From Methylacidiphilum infernorum V4 (lineage in GTDB: Bacteria; Verrucomicrobiota; Verrucomicrobiia; Methylacidiphilales; Methylacidiphilaceae): a stretch of DNA of 64,000 nucleotides. Location: contig NC_010794.1 of assembly GCF_000019665.1 (NCBI RefSeq), positions 124,001-188,000 on the forward strand, read 5' to 3'. Made by a program: the position numbers and the translations under genes. The notes under the pieces are model-generated. The model was given only the letters and a program-made list of their open reading frames with translations. It did not search any database and was not told the DNA's origin. Shown here piece after piece: positions 23,366-47,621 of the stretch; within the stretch, counting starts at the first letter, position 1, and every line of letters starts with the position of its first letter.

Positions 23366-24241
23366 ATGAAACCGATTTGCGATTTTAGGAAATCCCATGT
23401 TCTTGGGTTAAGAAATTCTTTTTTGATCCTCGTTCTTTTTCTTGGATTTTGGAATTTTTTTGTTCATGCCCAAGCTGGAATCAAGGATCTAAGCGAGATC
23501 GAGGCCAGCAAGGATCTTGTTTTAAAAGAAGAAAATCTCAAACAAGATTGGACAAAAGATCTCTTTCTAGGGGTGTTTTCAGGGGGATTCTGGCCATCGG
23601 TTTCAAGGACATCTTCTACCACCTTTTATCCTTCAGGCAGGGAGGTCCATTCTCAAGGGTACAGCCAATCCCATTCCGGTTATTTTGGAGGACTTTATGT
23701 CGGTTATGATTTAAAGGAAGCAGCCCTGGCTCTATGTGCCGATAAAAAATGGAAAATGATTCCCTTTGTGGCTTGCATCTTTAACTATGGTCAGATCAGC
23801 AGTTCAGGTTTTTCTTATGATGGGCTCTCTCCTTATCCCTCTTTTTCCAATGCCAGCAGTCAGTCCTTTATCCCTGAAATAGCAGCAGGGGTTAACTTTT
23901 CCAACACGACGCGATTTGTCCCTTTTGTGGGTATAACCTTGGGTGCGGCTTTAAATTGGCTTACCGATCCGGCTGTGATCAGTCCACAGGGTGAATCCCT
24001 TTTAGCACCCAATCAGACCGCTTTTGCCTTGGCATGGACATCGAAGTTAATTGCGGGAATGGCCTTTAGGCTTGCCCCGCATTGGGATCTTCTCATTGCC
24101 TATACGACGAGGTTTATTTCCCCACAGGATTTTAACCTGAAGGGAGAAACGCCCGGGGGAGTGTCTTCAGTTGTTGCCCATTTGGGATGGTACCAGGATT
24201 TTGAAGGTTGGGGAGCTATTCAATATAACTTTTGGCCCTAA
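23366..24241 (+). CDS. Predicted outer-membrane beta-barrel protein
   Basis: 291 residues. A signal segment (LILVLFLGFWNFFVHAQA) is followed by a short charged linker. The remainder alternates polar and hydrophobic residues with many Gly, Ser and aromatics (GYFGGLYVGYDL, FVPFVGITLGAAL, HWDLLIAYTTRFI). It ends in an aromatic-rich strand (WGAIQYNFWP). This is the look of an 8-stranded OmpW/OmpA-type barrel, but no specific family signature is visible. It stands as a single gene. Function unknown. Confidence 0.65.
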   Translation: MKPICDFRKSHVLGLRNSFLILVLFLGFWNFFVHAQAGIKDLSEIEASKDLVLKEENLKQDWTKDLFLGVFSGGFWPSVSRTSSTTFYPSGREVHSQGYSQSHSGYFGGLYVGYDLKEAALALCADKKWKMIPFVACIFNYGQISSSGFSYDGLSPYPSFSNASSQSFIPEIAAGVNFSNTTRFVPFVGITLGAALNWLTDPAVISPQGESLLAPNQTAFALAWTSKLIAGMAFRLAPHWDLLIAYTTRFISPQDFNLKGETPGGVSSVVAHLGWYQDFEGWGAIQYNFWP

Positions 24242-25306
24242 GAGAAAAAGGAGCATGACTGGTTTTAAAAGGGGGATGAATAAGCCTTTTTTACTCCTTG
24301 CTCCATCCCCGGCTCTTCTCAAGGTTGCCGACTGCCTACTATGGCAGGGCTTCGAACCCTGTCGTGAACAGCCCGCTGTCAGTGACTTGGCTGCGTCGGG
24401 TGGAATAGGTTGCAGATCGCTTGTGGTTTAAGGCATGGGTTTGCACATTAAATCGCTTAATTCGAAAGAGATGTAAAAGCCTTATCTATATTATTAGCCT
24501 ATATCCCTATTTTTATCCTTATTAAGAAAAATCACCTAATAGGAAGGAACTAGGACTAAGAAAAAAAGACGAATCACCCATGTCGATCGTATCCTTTTTG
24601 TTGATCTTAGGATGACAACCGCTTGGAACCGAGCTCGCTTCCCTTTAAGAAATTCCGTCAAAATCTTAAGTTCCCTTTCTTTTTCAGCCACTCTTCAAGA
24701 AGGAAAAAGGTTTTCAATGCAAAGGACAAAGCAACCGGCTCTCTTTCCTGGGATCTACCCAGCCATTCATTAGCTTCTTCTTTGAGAAAATCTAAAGCAA
24801 GAAAAGAAAGCCCGCTTTCTCTATTTCCAAAAACCTTAACAAGGTAAACTTAGCCAAGTCACCAACCAATATGGGACTACCTCCTAGTCGTCATCGATTT
24901 TCTTTTCTTAAAACCAAACAAATAAAGGAAGTGCTCCTCTTATAAGTTCGCTAAAGGTTGGCTTCTCCAAGACTGCAAGAAGCTAGTCCAATTCCTGAAA
25001 AAGAATGGATGGTAGCCATTGCAGCAATCCTACGATCTTTTTGGCTTGTACAGAAACCACCGTGGTGCCGTTGATCGTGTAAAGCATCTGATCTCCGCCA
25101 GAATGTCTGGCTTGGCCACCCAGTCGCCCGATCCTGTCAAGAACCTTGCTTGGCTGCTGTTTTTACTGTATTGCTTTACGTGCGGAGGGAAGAAAGTGAA
25201 ACCCATGCGGCTGGCTCGGCCTTGCAACGATTTATTTTTTTCAAGGAAAAAAGAGAAGTATTGGAGTCAAAATTGTGTTTATTTGGTTTGCTCGTTTGCG
25301 CAAACC
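24242..25306. other. Gene-poor accessory region
   Basis: About 1.07 kb without a supportable gene. A hairpin with the shape of a tRNA T-arm lies at 24345-24361 without the rest of a tRNA. A short stretch at 24871-24942 (GLPPSRHRFSFLKTKQIKEVL) recalls the N-terminus of RnpA but stops at once. The segment probably contains old gene debris. Confidence 0.45.
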
Positions 25307-26176
25307 CTATGACCGATTCTTCTTCTGCCAATCAACAACATTATTTACTGCTGCCCGCACGACCCCCCAACAGATTGTGCAAGTGTCCTTATCTGGCTGC
25401 ATCTCCATCTCACGTTGTTTTTTGGGGTGAACAATGTTTCTGTACTCGCGCAATATGCGACTAAAGTCATTTACATGCTTCCGAATCCACCCGCGTTTGT
25501 GGGCCACGTTGATCAAATCATTTAAGGTCCAATCGCAAAAATCTTTAGGTTGTCCTTTCCTGTCCTTGGGGGAAGCACTTGAGCGATTGGCTTCCTCTGG
25601 ATTGGCTTCAGCCACCGCAAGCAAAACGCCTTCAAGCAGGCTTCCCATCATCACCAATGCGGCCACGTAAGCACCAGAATCCACGCATTTTCTAACTTCT
25701 ATCCATCGTTCGTGCAAAATATCCCTAAGCAGTTGATCATTCGTCAAAGGCGTAAAATCTGGAGGATCTAAAAATCCAAGCGGATTTTCTGGATCCTTAA
25801 TCAGTCCTGGTTCTCTATCGATCAACTGAGGCTTGATACCGTCAAGTTTTATTTCGTAGCCTTCGACAATGAGCATTTTGTTCAGCTTGGTTACGACTTC
25901 TTCAACTTTCTTGGGATCGCCCCCATACCCACGCGGATCAGCAAGGCTCAGAATTGTATTCTCGATGTTTCCCGGGAATTGGGATGCTGTTAGCAACGTT
26001 TGGCATATCCACTCCTGTAGGGCATCTCTATCAGCATTAGAGTGGCGTTTAATTGTCATTACCCATAGAGGACCAGGATCCTCGATGCTACATATAATAC
26101 CAGCCAGAGAATGTAAGGTACCTATATCCCACTTCTTCATTTTCTTGCTGTCTTGGACCTCCTTAGTCCTCTCCAT
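25307..26176 (-). CDS. HEPN-domain protein, abortive-infection-like
   Basis: About 289 residues from ATG 26176 (a TTG at 26185 is in frame). The C-terminal ~120 residues are helical and contain LLEGVLLAVAE, TLNDLINVAHKRGWI and ILREYRNIVHP. The last carries an R-x6-H pattern typical of HEPN RNase domains in abortive-infection (AbiJ-like) and related proteins. The N-terminal part (about 1-150) is of unknown type and may sense the trigger. It is a single gene without a visible partner, near an MNT/HEPN pair and an HNH-like gene. A defence role is likely but inferred from family and context. Confidence 0.65.
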   Translation of the reverse strand: MERTKEVQDSKKMKKWDIGTLHSLAGIICSIEDPGPLWVMTIKRHSNADRDALQEWICQTLLTASQFPGNIENTILSLADPRGYGGDPKKVEEVVTKLNKMLIVEGYEIKLDGIKPQLIDREPGLIKDPENPLGFLDPPDFTPLTNDQLLRDILHERWIEVRKCVDSGAYVAALVMMGSLLEGVLLAVAEANPEEANRSSASPKDRKGQPKDFCDWTLNDLINVAHKRGWIRKHVNDFSRILREYRNIVHPKKQREMEMQPDKDTCTICWGVVRAAVNNVVDWQKKNRS

Positions 26177-26802
26177 TAATGTCAACTTTAATCTTATCCC
26201 CTCAGCTCTTTACGTCCAATGTTTTCAGCAAATCTTAAGATAAAGTTGCTGGAAAAAATAATCGACGAAATAACTGTTGTGTCTATCGTTGGCGTCTGCC
26301 CGGAGGCGGGACGAAAACATTGGACAAAATGATTAAGCTTGCGTGGATTCCGCTTTCAAGCGTTAATCCTCGTCGACGAAACTTTGTGGAACTGGTTTTA
26401 TGAAGCATGATGAAAAAAATAAAGACAGTAGTCGACTGAAGACTAACATGTCTTAGTGGGAAGGCTTTTTGAGCTGGCAGTTGGGATAGGACATTAGGTG
26501 TTATGGGTAGATGCTGAAATCTGTGTGATTGGTGCTGGACTCTGCCATGAATGCCTTGGGCTATTCCAGCAGGTCATCGCTGGCGACCATCAACTAGCTT
26601 GACTAGGATTAGGCTCTTGCCGCTTCTTGAGTCTATCCAGAAGCCCATGCGGTTGAAGAGGAGGCGACAGAGGATACGAGCCTTTGGTAGCCTCACATGT
26701 GCTTGGCAGGCGATAAGCGAGCCAGGTCTTGGCCCTGTTAGGCAGGGGGTAGGTCGTCGAAGGTGATGTCGTAGAGCATCTCCTTTAGGATAGGGGTTGC
26801 TG
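26177..26802. other. Non-coding stretch between HEPN genes
   Basis: About 620 bases with only overlapping, unrecognisable open frames on both strands (26551-26766 and 26574-26942). The latter overlaps the HEPN gene antisense and looks like a shadow. I see no repeat or RNA gene. Confidence 0.45.
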
Positions 26803-27213
26803 TCAGTCTGAAAGCCTGAGGCCTGCTTCGACCAGTTTTTCTCGCACAAAAGCCCGGACCCGCTCGGCAAGTTCAACAGCCCCTTGTGTTTCCTCCTGAT
26901 CGGGTGCATAGGGCTCCTCGCCGTAACGAAGGGCAGTCGCACAACGGGTGAGTTCCCGTACTCCCCATTCCTTTAGCTCGTAAAACGAAGGGAAAATTTG
27001 TGCACAAAGGTTGACGAGAGAAAGAATGTTATGAGTTCGAGGATGCTCTCGACCGTGAAAGATGAGAAAGGCCTTCAGGTATTTTTCGACGCACTGCTGC
27101 ATGTGAAAGCACGTGACCCAGTAAATGGGATGGTTAGATCGCATTAGGATCTTGCCAGCCTCCAGGTCGTCTTCTGCCCTCCGGATCCATGCCCGAACTG
27201 TCTCTTCGTTCAC
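26803..27213 (-). CDS. HEPN toxin of an MNT/HEPN toxin-antitoxin pair
   Basis: 136 residues. The sequence RRAEDDLEAGKILM, then FHMQQCVEKYLKAFLIFHGRE, then RTHNILSLVNLC, is the pattern of the HEPN proteins that pair with minimal nucleotidyltransferases. Members act as RNases held inactive or AMPylated by their partner. The start is GTG 27213, overlapping the stop of the MNT gene as GTGA, so the two are translationally coupled. Gene order (MNT then HEPN) fits this family. Confidence 0.82.
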   Translation of the reverse strand: MNEETVRAWIRRAEDDLEAGKILMRSNHPIYWVTCFHMQQCVEKYLKAFLIFHGREHPRTHNILSLVNLCAQIFPSFYELKEWGVRELTRCATALRYGEEPYAPDQEETQGAVELAERVRAFVREKLVEAGLRLSD

Positions 27214-27560
27214 AGCTCAATCCCTTCCTTGAGCACGTAATAGGTGAGGCTGCCGGTGTCCCCGGCTCGCTGGATAGCGGTCTCCTCGGACTGGACGAAC
27301 ACGTCGGCCCAGATCTGCTCTTCGGCCAAACGATCGCAGATGCGGTCGGCAATCTCCCACCGGGTCTTCCGTGGGGCAGCAGGAGCGATGATGATGTAGA
27401 AGTCCCAATCGCTGTCAGGCCGGCATTCCCCGCGGGCGCGGCTGCCGAAGAGTAGCGCGCGGCGGACTTGGAATCCCGCTCGCTCCACTTCCTCTCGGAT
27501 GATCTGCCTAGCCTTGCCTAAGATAATTTCTATTGGCTCACTATCCGTTGGATGGGACAT
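27210..27560 (-). CDS. Minimal nucleotidyltransferase (MNT), partner of HEPN
   Basis: 116 residues of the DNA-polymerase-beta-like MNT fold. The active site LLFGSRARGECRPDSDWDFY contains the G-S signature and the D-x-D metal ligands, so it looks catalytically competent. In related MntA/HepT modules this protein neutralises the HEPN toxin by adding nucleotides to it; whether that holds for this subtype is inference. It overlaps the HEPN gene by four bases. Its base composition is noticeably richer in GC than the neighbouring island, suggesting acquisition. Confidence 0.85.
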   Translation of the reverse strand: MSHPTDSEPIEIILGKARQIIREEVERAGFQVRRALLFGSRARGECRPDSDWDFYIIIAPAAPRKTRWEIADRICDRLAEEQIWADVFVQSEETAIQRAGDTGSLTYYVLKEGIEL

Positions 27561-28003
27561 CGATCTGGTCCTCCTGTACCTGTTCCTATCGCGAGGGCTT
27601 ATGCCGAATTACATTCCTGACCGTCATGTTTATCCGAATTCCCAATAGGGATTCCGGCTCCTCGTGATGGTCTGCACCTCCCGGCCGATGGCTTGCTCCA
27701 GCCTCTACTTTGGCTTCGCAAATTCCTCCACGCGCCCAGATATATTGCGGTCCCCGTTGAGGAAAGCGGCCGCTCATCTCATGCGCGGACACGGGCGTCG
27801 TCTTTCAAAAAGCCTTTAGTATTTATTTTATAGCAAAAATTGGAATCAGTATAAACGGAAATATGGAAATAAAGATATGTGCAAAAAGACATATCTGTCG
27901 CTTTCTCGATAAAAGCGGAAAAAAGAAAAATAAAAGTGCTAGCAGAAAGGAGACCTACTATAGGTAGCAGTTAAGACGGTACGAGGCGTTAGGAACCATT
28001 TAT
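27561..28003. other. Spacer between MNT gene and repeat remnant
   Basis: 443 bases. A minus-strand frame (27586-27792) has no recognisable homologue, and composition changes sharply from GC-rich to AT-rich at about 27810. That step looks like a junction between segments of different origin. Confidence 0.4.
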
Positions 28004-28116
28004 TAAGCTTTCTTTTGTAAAACGACTTTTTTCTGATAAGGTGAGTTTACGGGCTAGGCCCAAACTACAACAATTATCGTTTCTCTATGAATCTTTTTTC
28101 CATCTTTTTAGATCAC
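28004..28116 (+). pseudogene. Degenerate copy of the small membrane/coiled-coil gene
   Basis: The DNA aligns with the leader and first codons of the intact copies at 29096 and 46930. From 28059 it translates AQTTTIIVSL, then stops (TGA at 28089), against VQTVTIIVSLGG in the intact gene. Similarity resumes to the codons for FYLF. The coiled-coil part is missing. Confidence 0.65.
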
Positions 28117-28167
28117 GTATTCCACTGGGTATTATTTCTTCGAAAATACACAAGGTAAGGTAAAGAA

Positions 28168-28917
28168 ATGACAAGCTGCAGTAAAAAACCCAAAAAAGAG
28201 GAATTAAAATGCATTTACTGAGGTGGGCCGTATGAAACTAGAGATCATGCGGTGCCGAAGGGTATTTTCCCTGCTCCGGCACCGGAAAACCTGATCACCG
28301 TGCCTTCGTGTAAATCTTGTAACAATGGTTATTCACGGGACGAAGAGGAGTTTCTGATTGACCTGGTCCTTTCGGCAACGGCTCTTGATAAGAACAACGA
28401 AGCCAATAAGGTCTTGGGTAAGGTTGTGCGCGAGCTTCGAGGAGAGAGAAAAGGAGTGATCCGTTCAGGAAGAAGGAAAAAATCGTTCCGAGTGGTTCAG
28501 TCTGCTCGTTTGGTTGATGTGTTCACTCCTAGCGACGTCTTCCTTGGACAGGTAGTTGCCTTCCCGGCTAACGGAGACGCTTTCTATCGGGTTATAGATA
28601 AAATTGTTAGAGGCCTTTACTACCACCACTTCGGGAAGGCGTTGAGCAGGGACGCGCTTGTTTGGCAGCAACCGGTCGACAGGTCATCTCCGGATTGGAG
28701 GGAGGAATTCATTAAAATGGTGGCGCCGTTCAAGTGGAAAAAATTCATGATAGGAAACGGAAAGACATTTCAATACTTGCTTGCAACGGGCCAAACTGAC
28801 GGTTTCGACGAAACTTACTGGATACTTGTGTTTTATGAAGGTAACGGCCATCTCTCGCTTTACTTGTGCGGCACGAGGGAAACCGGGATGGGGAATGCCG
28901 ACGACATCCCCTCATAA
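28168..28917 (+). pseudogene. HNH-nuclease-like gene with one in-frame TGA
   Basis: From ATG 28168, with an AAGGTAAAG ribosome-binding site, the frame runs 249 codons and is interrupted only by TGA at 28219-28221. Read through, the protein has KCIY-x-GG, TRDHAVPKGIF, then VPSCKSCNNGYSRDEE, the two-CxxC plus EHVIP-like layout of HNH/HNH_5 zinc nucleases. The TGA falls exactly on the second Cys of the first CxxC. The downstream part (from GTG 28252) remains fully open for 221 codons and shows no other decay. It could be a very recent nonsense mutation, a sequencing error, or recoding. Without the first Cys pair the product from 28252 would lack its metal site. Confidence 0.7.
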
Positions 28918-29095
28918 ATTGGTTAAAATAATTGAAGATCATTAGAGATTTCCTCAGCAGGAATGAATACGCTAAAACGTAATTGTACTGATCCGGTTCT
29001 GTGAAGAAATAATAAAACGAAAAGTATAATTTGAGAACAATACAACTGAGTAAATACTCCAATCTGTAAGAGCACATGAACGTCAAGTCGAAGTT

Positions 29096-29153
29096 CCGGC
29101 CGTCTATCCGGAAAATCTCTTGTAATGCAGGTTTTTTCTGGTAGGATGGATCT
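29096..29153 (+). repeat. Conserved leader of the small membrane/coiled-coil gene, copy 1
   Basis: These 58 bases match the leader of the second copy (46930-46988) at most positions, beginning CCGGCCGTC and including TCCGGAAAATCT and CTGGTAGGATGGATCT before the GTG start. Homology begins abruptly at CCGGCCGTC in both places, as expected for a duplicated or mobile segment. GGATGG is the likely ribosome-binding site. Confidence 0.75.
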
Positions 29154-29351
29154 GTGGATTGGGTTCAGACTGTAACAATTATCGTCTCTCTGGGAGGCTT
29201 TGTTTTCTACCTATTTAGAAACCAGGAGAAAAGGATAGAGGATCTCAGGTCGGACATGAATGTGCGTTTCGCTGAGCAGGGGAAAAGGATCGAGCTTGTG
29301 GAAAAGATCCTAGCCAAGGCGGTCCGGATCGATCCGCAGACTCTAGACTGA
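29154..29351 (+). CDS. Small membrane-anchored coiled-coil protein, copy 1
   Basis: 65 residues from GTG 29154. One N-terminal membrane segment (WVQTVTIIVSLGGFVFYLF) is followed by a charged helix with 11-residue periodicity (KRIEDLRSDMNVRFAEQ) and a conserved end, GKRIELVEKILAKAVRID. A close paralogue lies at 46989, and decayed copies at 28004 and 29763. I do not recognise a named family. Conservation of protein and leader across copies argues that it is expressed. Confidence 0.72.
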   Translation: MDWVQTVTIIVSLGGFVFYLFRNQEKRIEDLRSDMNVRFAEQGKRIELVEKILAKAVRIDPQTLD

Positions 29352-29532
29352 TTTTTTTACTCCTAGTAAACCGGATCAGAATCAGCGGCTCAGTGAAGAA
29401 TTCCGGCCCATCTTTAACTGTCGGCCTGCTCTCTGTCTTAACCGGCATTGGCCGGCAGCCGGAAGTAGCCGAACTTCCCGGCCCCAAGAAAAAGAACAAA
29501 TTAACCAACGGATTGCAGCACACAACTGCTCG

Positions 29533-29697
29533 CTTACTTATACAACCTTGTATCCTTATAACCTCATATTCTTATAACTACACCTCCTTACATATACTTT
29601 AAGCTTTATATCATTATAACTATAGATCCTTACAATCGCATGTCCTTATAGCCTTATAGACTTGCATCATCAAAACCGCATAATCTTACATCCGGAC
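29533..29697. repeat. Degenerate 16-bp tandem repeat
   Basis: About ten units of 15-16 bases with a core near ATCCTTATAAC (for example CTTGTATCCTTATAAC followed by CTCATATTCTTATAAC). Units drift strongly toward the right end. It is AT-rich and outside any gene. Confidence 0.6.
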
Positions 29698-29762
29698 ATA
29701 AGTCCAGGTCCATTCGACAGTGAAGCCCAAAAAACCCTAGAGAAGAACACCGGCAGAGCACC

Positions 29763-29989
29763 CGCGGCCTAGCCAAGCAGGGCAAAAGGATAGTCGACTT
29801 TAATGGCGGATTTAAACTCGATGCTGCCTACTTGAGAGCGGATGTAATTCGACAACTGCCGGGCTGAGGACTGATGTGCACTTGCGGTTTGCCGATCGCG
29901 ACAAGAGAATCGACAAGGCAAGAGAATTCCTATGCGAGCTATTGTTCAGCACGAAAAAGCGGGATTCGGCGTTGCTAAAGAGATATTAA
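29763..29989 (+). pseudogene. Decayed fragments of the coiled-coil family
   Basis: One frame gives AKQGKRIVD and later YLRADVIRQLPG, ending at TGA 29865-29867. The next frame, from 29864, gives LRTDVHLRFADRDKRID. The intact copy at 46989 has LRADMNARFAEQGKRIE. The match is good for two modules, but the membrane segment and start are absent. Confidence 0.55.
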
Positions 29990-30112
29990 GTCGTACCAAC
30001 CGGATTTTTCATTAGGGAACAACTCACCGCAAACTCTAGGCAGTCCCCTTTGCCTTTTTCTTTACAAAGAAAATTTCTTGGCCGATGTTAAGTTAAAAAT
30101 TCCTTTTTGCTC

Positions 30113-30286
30113 ATGAAATCAAAAATATTAGCGATATTCCTCTTCTTGCTCGTTGGGGGGGTCCCGTTGGGATCCCAAGCTAAGCCTTTAGGAGGGAAAG
30201 CCCATTGTAATTGTGGGAAGAAATGTGCCCATGCGCAAAACTGTTTTGGCTTTAAAGCTCGGTGCGATCATGGCCAAAGGAAATAA
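30113..30286 (+). CDS. Small secreted Cys/His-rich protein
   Basis: 57 codons from ATG 30113 to TAA 30284-30286. A clear signal peptide (MKSKILAIFLFLLVGGVPLG) with cleavage near SQA precedes a mature part of about 34 residues. That part contains five Cys and three His: AHCNCGKKCAHAQNCFGF and then RCDHGQRK. The spacing C-x-C-x3-C is metallothionein-like, suggesting metal binding or disulfides in the periplasm or outside. Its stop is 57 bases from the convergent YyaL-like gene. No family is recognised; it could be a metal chaperone, a redox peptide or a toxin-like peptide. Confidence 0.65.
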   Translation: MKSKILAIFLFLLVGGVPLGSQAKPLGGKAHCNCGKKCAHAQNCFGFKARCDHGQRK

Positions 30287-30343: not shown

Positions 30344-32518
30344 CTAAATCGGCTGATAGCTCTTCTCAGGAAATAAAACCGCAAAAGGTTTCAGAATCTC
30401 CAAGGCTTTATCCCTCTCTGTTTGGGCTAAGTGGCATTGGCCGTTTGTACAGATATAAATTAAGGGTAGCCCCTCGTAGTGCCGGGTAAGAGTCGTGTAG
30501 AAATCGGGAGATTTTAACAAGGAAGGGAGTTTTTCCTGGGGGTCCAAGACGACTAACAACCGGTTAGGGATGAGCAACTTGGATAAGCTGTGGAATAGCC
30601 GTTTTGTCTCTTCATTTTTTTTCTCGCCGACAAGGATAATTTCAACAAGGGGCGCTCTATATTCGCAGTATACCCCAAGTAAATAGGGCAGTGCGGTAGG
30701 AAATCTTTCTAAAATGGGCCATGCATAGCTAAAGAGCTCTTCTAGCCTTTTCCGCCATTTTTCTTCGCCTGTAAGGGTATAGAGTTTTAAAAGAGAATGA
30801 GCGGCCAAGGAAAGGGTGGCCGGTTCGGCTCCATCATATTCTTCTCGAGTCTGGATAGATTTTGCAGAGATTTCCACCGCTTCCACCATGTAGTTGTGCC
30901 TATAGGGATCCACGAACTTTTCTTCAAGCAGTTCTTGGAAGAGCTTTGCCAAGGAAAGCCATTTTTCGTCCTGATCGGCTTCAAAGAGATGAAGCATGCT
31001 TAGGGCAAGGGAAGCATAGTCAGAAGAAAATCCGGGCGTTCCCCTGCCGTTGCGATAAATGCGGTAAAGGGTTTTACTGCTTGGATCCCAGAGGTTCTCT
31101 AAAAGAAATGTTGCCGTTTTTTTGGCCTCGTTTATCAGCCGGCCATCTCCAATGACCATGTATGCCTTTGCAAGGGCTGAAAGGGTATAACCGTTCCAAG
31201 CGCAGATGATCTTATCATCCAAAAAAGGCTTCGAACGCTTAAGTCGTTCTTTTTTCAGGCCTTCTTTTGCCTTCAACACGATCTCCCTGGCCTCTTCAAG
31301 GGATATGCCCAGTTCATGGGCGAGGTCGGAAAGGGGTTTTTCCATAAGGAGGATGTTTTTTTTAGCCAGGGCTTCTTCAGATATAAGTCCACCCGGAAGG
31401 TTACCCTGTTCGGTTGCGCCAAAGAAATGGGCAAGGATCTTGCTTCTGTCTTTCCCTACAATCGGCTCAAGGGTTTGTTGGAGCTCCTGGAAAGTCCACA
31501 AGTAGTAAGCTCCTTCTTCTTCTTGTCCAGAGGCATTCAGGCTGTCGGCATCTTCAGCCGAATAGAAGCCTCCTGAAGGGTGGTGAAGATGGCTCAGGAG
31601 GTATTCAACAAGAGACTCAAAAGTATCTTTAAAAAGGGGATCATCAGTTGCTTGATAGGCATCAAGATAGGAAAGACCCAGGGTAGCCTGGTCATAAAGC
31701 ATTTTTTCAAAATGGGGCAGTCGCCATTTTTCGTCTACGGAATACCTGTGGAAACCCCCTTCCAGCTGGTCATGAATGCCCCCACCGCTCATTTTTTGCA
31801 GACTATACAAGGCCATTTGGAGGCTTTTTTTCTTGTAATCCTCTGAAAAATCAGCCAATGAGCCGGCTCTAAACAGGAAATAAAATAGGCTAGGACGAGG
31901 AAATTTAGGAGAAGGACTGAATCCTCCATGAGTCCTATCAAAGCTTCCCCAAAGCTGTTCTACAGCTTTTCTTGAAGCGATCGCCAGATTGGGAGGACTT
32001 TTCGGTTCGAAAGAACTCTGAATTACCTCCCTCATTTTATGAAAAATTTCTTGGCCTTGCTGTTCAAGAAGGGATCGATTGTATTGCCACAGCTCGGCTA
32101 TCTTTTTGAGAATATCAACAAATCCGGGCTTACCCCATTTGCTCTCCAAGGGAAAATAGGTTCCTCCAAAAAAAGGTTCAAGATTGGGGGTAAGCCAAAC
32201 GTTCATAGGCCATCCTCCCTGCCCGGTAAAGGCTTGGACAAATTCCATGTAAAACTGATCGATGTCCGGTCTTTCTTCTCTATCTACTTTTATCGGGATA
32301 AAAAAGGAATTGAGCAGTTGGGCCACAATAGGATTTTCAAAGGATTCTTTAGCCATGACATGGCACCAGTGGCAGGTTGAATAGCCTACGGAAAGAAAAA
32401 TGGGCCTGTCTAAATGCTTTGCTTTAAGCAGGCTTTCTTCGGTCCAGGGATGCCAATCCACTGGATTGTCGGCGTGTTGGAGCAAGTAAGGACTTTTTTC
32501 TTTGCAGAGAGCATTCAT
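30344..32518 (-). CDS. DUF255 / YyaL-type thioredoxin-like protein
   Basis: 724 residues, the full usual length of the YyaL/SPATA20 family. The N-terminal thioredoxin-fold domain carries [10 protein letters not shown] (C-x-x-C) and DREERPDID, followed by an N-acylglucosamine-2-epimerase-like alpha/alpha barrel with [30 protein letters not shown] and [10 protein letters not shown]. The family is conserved from bacteria to humans, but its reaction is not settled. No signal peptide, so cytoplasmic. It starts at ATG 32518. Confidence 0.92.
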
Positions 32519-46929: not shown

Positions 46930-46988
46930 CCGGCCGTCCATCCGGAAAATCTTTTGCAATGCGGGTATTTATCTGGTAGGATGGATCT
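46930..46988 (+). repeat. Conserved leader of the small membrane/coiled-coil gene, copy 2
   Basis: 59 bases matching the leader at 29096-29153, beginning at the same CCGGCCGTC boundary. It begins only 6 bases after the stop of the coiled-coil winged-helix gene. Confidence 0.75.
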
Positions 46989-47231
46989 GTGAACTGGGTT
47001 CAGACTATAACAATTATAGTCTCCTTGGGAGGCTTATTTTTCTATCTTTTTAGGGATCTTAAGTCGGACGTGAACAAGAGGATAGAGGATCTTAGGTCTG
47101 AGGTGAACAAGAGGATGGAGGAGTTGAGAGCCGACATGAACGCGCGTTTCGCCGAGCAGGGGAAAAGGATCGAGCTTGTGGAAAAGATCCTGGCCAAGGC
47201 GGTCCGGATCGATCTGAAGTCTATAGACTGA
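46989..47231 (+). CDS. Small membrane-anchored coiled-coil protein, copy 2
   Basis: 80 residues from GTG 46989. Membrane segment WVQTITIIVSLGGLFFYLF, then three 11-residue modules (DLKSDVNKRIE, DLRSEVNKRME, ELRADMNARFA), then GKRIELVEKILAKAVRID. It differs from copy 1 chiefly by 15 extra residues in the coiled coil. It follows the coiled-coil winged-helix gene, with which it may form an operon. Function unknown; a membrane-tethered oligomer is the simplest reading. Confidence 0.72.
   Translation: MNWVQTITIIVSLGGLFFYLFRDLKSDVNKRIEDLRSEVNKRMEELRADMNARFAEQGKRIELVEKILAKAVRIDLKSID
47055..47153 (+). repeat. Three 33-bp in-frame repeats
   Basis: Units at 47055-47087, 47088-47120 and 47121-47153 encode successive 11-residue coiled-coil modules. 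The first two differ at only a few bases; the third is more diverged. The other intact copy of the gene has fewer units. Confidence 0.75.
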
Positions 47232-47621
47232 TTCAGCCAGACTCCAAGAAAAAAGAAAAAAAAACGGGATATTTAAGTTCCGGCAGAATTTAAGATACCA
47301 ACTTTATTTTATATTTCTAGTAATGACGTAACTGGGCGTTAATGGGGTTAGGATCAAAGTTCAACGGCTGCAATACCCTTAAAGTTGGAATCAGCTTGTT
47401 CTTTTCTTATTTCTTTTTTCTTTCAGTCCCGACCGGGTAGTCCGAATCGTCTGAGAAGTCGGAAAAGGTATAAAAAGCTGAAATCTTCTTCTTAAAAGCT
47501 TCATCCTTCCCCTTGTTGCCCCTTGGGGGGGGTAGGGGTTGGAGACTTGAGATCTTGCCAATTTTTATCCTACCGACCGCCCTGGGGGGATTAATTTTCG
47601 AGGACAAAACAGATCCTTGAA
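47232..47621. other. Intergenic region without recognisable content
   Basis: 390 bases. A short minus-strand open frame at 47407-47607 has no recognisable features beyond a Lys/Ser-rich composition. I do not support it as a gene. Confidence 0.4.

Follow-up and report, generated by a model that had tools for sequence, protein, structure and literature searches.

A TGA at a zinc-site cysteine codon of an HNH nuclease-like gene in Methylacidiphilum infernorum V4: probably an ordinary nonsense mutation

Introduction

HNH endonucleases (Pfam PF01844 and PF14279) share an N-terminal CxxC ... H ... CxxC-N layout. Bacterial selenoproteins are recognized by an in-frame TGA that stands opposite a conserved Cys, with a hairpin downstream; the loop of the bacterial SECIS element lies 16 to 37 nt from the UGA, and one of its first two nucleotides is a G. 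UGA is also the leakiest of the stop codons. Selenocysteine (Sec) is typically found at redox sites (PMC1794560).

Here we analyze an HNH-type gene of the acidophilic methanotroph M. infernorum V4 that joins these features, within a window of 64,000 nucleotides (contig NC_010794.1, positions 124,001 to 188,000); all coordinates below are those of the window. An earlier note on this DNA had offered three readings of its single stop: a recent nonsense mutation, a sequencing error, or recoding of UGA to Sec. The first proved to be the best supported of the three, because the sel genes are absent, the relatives carry Cys and the gene lies in a V4-specific insert.

Results

The HNH-type frame and its stop

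28168 to 28917, plus strand: HNH-type gene with one in-frame stop, a probable pseudogene (frame reading, alignments)
28219 to 28221, plus strand: in-frame TGA, codon 18, where relatives have the second Cys of their first CxxC
28210 to 28326, plus strand: remains of the HNH zinc/active site, C15, (TGA18), H27, C48, C51 and N52 (alignments A1, A3 and A5; model)
28252 to 28917, plus strand: 221-codon frame from GTG 28252, the earliest possible restart past the TGA

On re-reading, the gene coordinates, the frame and the sole TGA were as the earlier note had given them. The tail behind the TGA is open up to the TAA end, as that note had also said, but it holds 231 sense codons, and the 232 counted before include the TAA. 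Because the frame is closed by another TAA four codons upstream, ATG 28168 is the only start codon 5' of the TGA. Shuffling the bases of the 231-codon tail produced a mean of 12 in-frame stops and left none of 20,000 shuffles free of stops; the frame was therefore once coding and belonged to a real gene.

With the TGA read through, the alignments place codon 18 on the second Cys of the first CxxC, in agreement with the earlier claim. Translation that starts at ATG 28168 would yield 17 residues and stop short of almost the whole HNH site, and therefore no working nuclease is expected. Single-base changes could create a stop in this ORF by 107 routes, 28 of which give TGA, and 4 of these 28 fall on a zinc-site Cys; about one random TGA in seven would therefore look like this one.

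The protein family

The read-through protein, to which all residue numbers from C15 to N52 refer, shows the CxxC-His-CxxC/H-Asn motif of HNH nucleases when the TGA is taken as Cys. In alignment A1 (15 sequences, TGA likewise read as Cys), C15, C18, H27, C48 and N52 are invariant. Of 28 family-conserved columns, 24 are matched by the read-through protein, column 18 being among them only since the TGA was read as Cys. Its identity to HNH proteins of Verrucomicrobiota, other phyla and plasmids is 18 to 32%. Against Pfam HNH (PF01844) it scored 14.8 bits, below the cut-off of 21.4; among the eight alignment members, five matched HNH_5 (PF14279, best 1.4e-05) and three matched HNH. The sole Pfam match of the tail after the TGA, DUF2515 (E 0.19), was taken as chance.

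An hmmsearch recovered the PDB HNH chain 4h9d_A (E 0.0085). The AlphaFold2 model of the read-through protein has a mean pLDDT of 80.8. Compared with the beta-beta-alpha metal fold of HNH nucleases, its motif region contains two strands (24-27 and 44-47) and one helix (57-73). PDB fold searches with the whole model gave no convincing match, and those for the long C-terminal domain gave no clear one; most PDB rows of a second look were hotdog thioesterases or dehydratases with Z at most 4.2, and were given no weight. Some positions of the C-terminal part (G196, F201 and W218) are conserved across the family. Judged from these sequence comparisons, the gene is best read as one for a putative nuclease that belongs to an HNH nuclease family of patchy distribution.

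Relatives on plasmids carry annotations as hypothetical proteins or as HNH proteins. One has a recombinase and a restriction endonuclease as neighbors and another a SIR2 protein; a defence role is only a guess.

Codon 18 in relatives

The earlier note had proposed comparing strains at this codon. The comparison was run across relatives instead, at 73 loci that include 11 weak generic HNH matches (L065-L075). A Cys codon is aligned at codon 18 in 68 of them, two weak loci have a gap and three have no alignment over the motif. Removal of three duplicates (L085, L096 and L104) leaves a Cys codon aligned in 65 of 70 distinct loci, and in all five loci not aligned through codon 18 the CxxC was seen on reading. 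TGA was found at codon 18 in none of the 73 loci (70 distinct). Among matches with stops, the strong match L050 has a TGA at its own C-terminal end, and the weak matches L071 (one TAA) and L075 (one TGA and one TAA) have Cys at codon 18.

The phylum search matched 32 of 387 genomes, the V4 genome counted in, and three more of its weak matches stand outside the 73-locus set. The plasmids collection gave 20 records below 60% identity, 12 of which were taken into the comparison, and the phages collection gave two distant HNH matches, neither of which was taken; scans of the viral_contigs collection with the single protein and with A3 gave no relative. In a Marinobacter plasmid relative (L022:601-612) the annotated start lies inside the first CxxC and omits the first Cys from the annotated protein; this start is probably misplaced.

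A V4-specific insert

24250 to 30204, no strand: V4-specific insert holding the HNH gene (flanks compared, limits approximate)
28011 to 28112, plus strand: degenerate remnant, immediately 5' of the HNH gene, that corresponds to the 5' end of the small gene at 29154

The flanks of the insert are a 291-aa gene ending at 24241 and a DsbH-like gene at 30344-32518. The matched blocks are 244 to 389 bp apart in four other genomes of the genus and about 5.96 kb apart in V4. As the flanks lie close together in all four, the HNH gene sits in a lineage-specific insert, which is about 5.6 kb long and absent from those 4/4 genomes. The HNH gene itself had no match in these four or in eight other genomes of the family, and the insert was probably acquired horizontally.

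The relic at 28011-28112 (102 bp) reached a local score of 38, while 500 shuffles gave no more than 16, and it has stops in its frame. The earlier statement that nothing else is decayed thus holds inside the HNH frame but not upstream of it. The small gene itself (29154-29351) encodes 65 aa, with a membrane-anchor-like start and then a coiled-coil-like stretch. It belongs to a V4 multicopy family, also present at 46930-47233, and its DNA matches eight other places in the genome, one region of which (L040/L042) has many tandem motif repeats. In the intergenic stretch, 29535-29706 is a degenerate tandem repeat whose unit measures about 16 bases.

The insert also carries a 292-aa protein without a family match (25307-26185). 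HEPN and MntA-like nucleotidyltransferase genes adjoin each other at 26803-27213 and 27210-27560 on the minus strand; G+C of this stretch is 0.52 to 0.59 versus about 0.45 around it, and the two genes look like a separately acquired toxin-antitoxin pair.

Is the TGA real, and is it read as a stop?

A sequencing or assembly error, with the strain's gene intact, was the second of the earlier options. The remaining frame is intact and a single codon stands out, as such an error would have it. However, the V4 genome was produced by Sanger shotgun with 43,008 reads and 344 finishing reads for 2.29 Mb (PMC2474590), a coverage of 11- to 13-fold if reads of about 600 to 700 bases are assumed. An error is therefore still conceivable but unlikely, and the TGA base is probably real in the organism.

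UGA is a working stop in this genome, since the RF2 gene prfB is present and TGA ends 14 of the 37 non-overlapping ORFs of 200 or more aa in the window. Low-level readthrough, for example by tRNA-Trp, would give a little full-length protein in which some other residue fills position 18. The leakiness of UGA, the presence of tRNA-Trp and the intact downstream frame would all suit it, whereas RF2 is present, no specific signal is known, and the product would lack a zinc ligand because position 18 is an invariant Cys in the relatives. We regard such readthrough as very improbable.

Slightly less credible still is a restart at GTG 28252, giving a working protein of 221 residues whose role is not HNH cleavage. 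This GTG is in frame, 31 bases past the TGA, and opens a 221-aa ORF that would keep the conserved places of the C-terminal part. On the other hand, the two Cys of the first CxxC and the conserved His are missing from this frame (C15, C18 and H27, which do not vary in A1, A3 or A5), and no truncated relative lacking these residues, as a restart product would, was seen among the relatives.

The hairpin after the TGA

28222 to 28256, plus strand: hairpin directly 3' of the TGA, -14.6 kcal/mol, 9-nt loop, weak SECIS resemblance

The earlier note had suggested looking for a SECIS-like hairpin after 28221. A hairpin is indeed present, with a 9-bp stem that closes a 9-nt loop and stands on a lower stem of 3 bp; it folds at -14.6 kcal/mol in the two shortest folding windows, and its z ranges from -1.64 to -3.06 over five windows. 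Its SECIS likeness is weak: the loop has guanosines inside but starts with AA, the distance from UGA to loop is 14 nt, and this does not fit the SECIS consensus. In 42-nt folding windows, equally stable hairpins follow 24 of the 1,912 TGAs in the window (about 1 in 80). The same stability was reached at 152 of 5,812 positions with comparable G+C and at 7 of 236 codon positions within the ORF itself, some of the latter overlapping this hairpin. The hairpin is thus mildly unusual, does not carry a case for recoding and is probably incidental. We also considered a stop that is leaky by design, where hairpin and UGA together pass a trickle of full-length protein independently of Sec and so keep a costly nuclease very low; we give this idea hardly any credence.

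Selenocysteine machinery

The search of the sel genes, also suggested earlier, covered a genome in a single contig (2,287,145 bp, 99.97% complete) and found none of SelA, SelB, SelC and SelD. For selA, PF03841 had no match in this genome while the E. coli and M. jannaschii controls were positive; in 12 other genomes of the family there were short matches in three, none over the cut-off. For selB there were six matches, all below the cut-off. The best of these loci is EF-Tu, the whole protein being over the EF-Tu cut-off; for the other five, where the matched stretches were scanned, the best assignments were CysN or its bifunctional form, IF-2, TypA, LepA and EF-G. For selD there were only two sub-cutoff matches, which are ThiL and PurM, each over its own cut-off. 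For selC (tRNA-Sec), ARAGORN named all 46 tRNAs, each with an ordinary anticodon and none with UCA; the sole RF01852 match over the cut-off is a tRNA-Ser with anticodon UGA. The published tRNA count for V4 is likewise 46 (PMC2474590). In that genome paper the terms 'seleno' and 'pseudogene' have 0 occurrences, and a literature search with Methylacidiphilum infernorum and selenocysteine found no title carrying either term.

Absence of the sel genes thus coincides with Cys in the relatives, the combination that the earlier note had named as speaking for plain mutation. Sec decoding is excluded as far as a genome sequence can exclude it. Recoding of UGA as Sec at the zinc-site Cys, the third of the earlier options, is accordingly the least probable reading of all, because the TGA/Cys pairing and the hairpin with guanosines in its loop are outweighed by the missing selA, selB, selD and tRNA-Sec, the poor fit of the hairpin to the SECIS rule, the equally stable hairpins after other TGAs, the lack of TGA in any relative and the nature of the site, a structural zinc ligand rather than one of the redox sites typical of Sec (PMC1794560).

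Discussion

We conclude, with a probability of roughly 0.86, that the TGA arose by ordinary nonsense mutation, probably not long ago, in an HNH gene that had come by horizontal transfer and was dispensable. As the cell has no machinery to read Sec, an ordinary broken gene is the most likely state of this locus. Features of a nonsense pseudogene were found: an early in-frame stop and no recoding machinery in the one V4 genome, and relatives that are intact. The adjoining decayed gene fragment (28011-28112) also counted for this reading. Counted against it were the position of the TGA exactly on an invariant Cys, the fairly stable hairpin that comes next (z -3.06 in the best of five windows), and the otherwise unbroken HNH frame, in which decay has to be read from a single base.

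In the proposed course of events, an accessory insert would have brought a member of the HNH nuclease family into the V4 lineage, and one nonsense mutation would then have disabled it; the mutation is probably recent, because the rest of the frame is intact. The ancestral protein was presumably a DNase and may have protected its host from foreign DNA.

In itself, another accessory nuclease gene interrupted by a nonsense mutation means little. The locus is mainly a caution, as a single TGA that stands at a conserved Cys and precedes a hairpin mimics a selenoprotein until selA, selB, selC and selD are checked; if UGA were in truth decoded here without sel genes, this would amount to a novel recoding route.

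Compared with bacterial selenoproteins with TGA/Cys pairs, the gene is alike in its in-frame TGA opposite a conserved Cys and its downstream hairpin, but it differs in having no Sec-decoding genes, no TGA in relatives and no redox site. Its local similarity to the PADLOC candidate-defence family PDC-M01B and to PtuB is weak and confined to residues 9-58 (best E 2.3e-06), whereas outside the HNH motif region the protein differs. The N-terminal CxxC ... H ... CxxC-N layout is that of HNH endonucleases (PF01844 and PF14279), from which the V4 protein is set apart by a stop in the zinc site and a long C-terminal domain.
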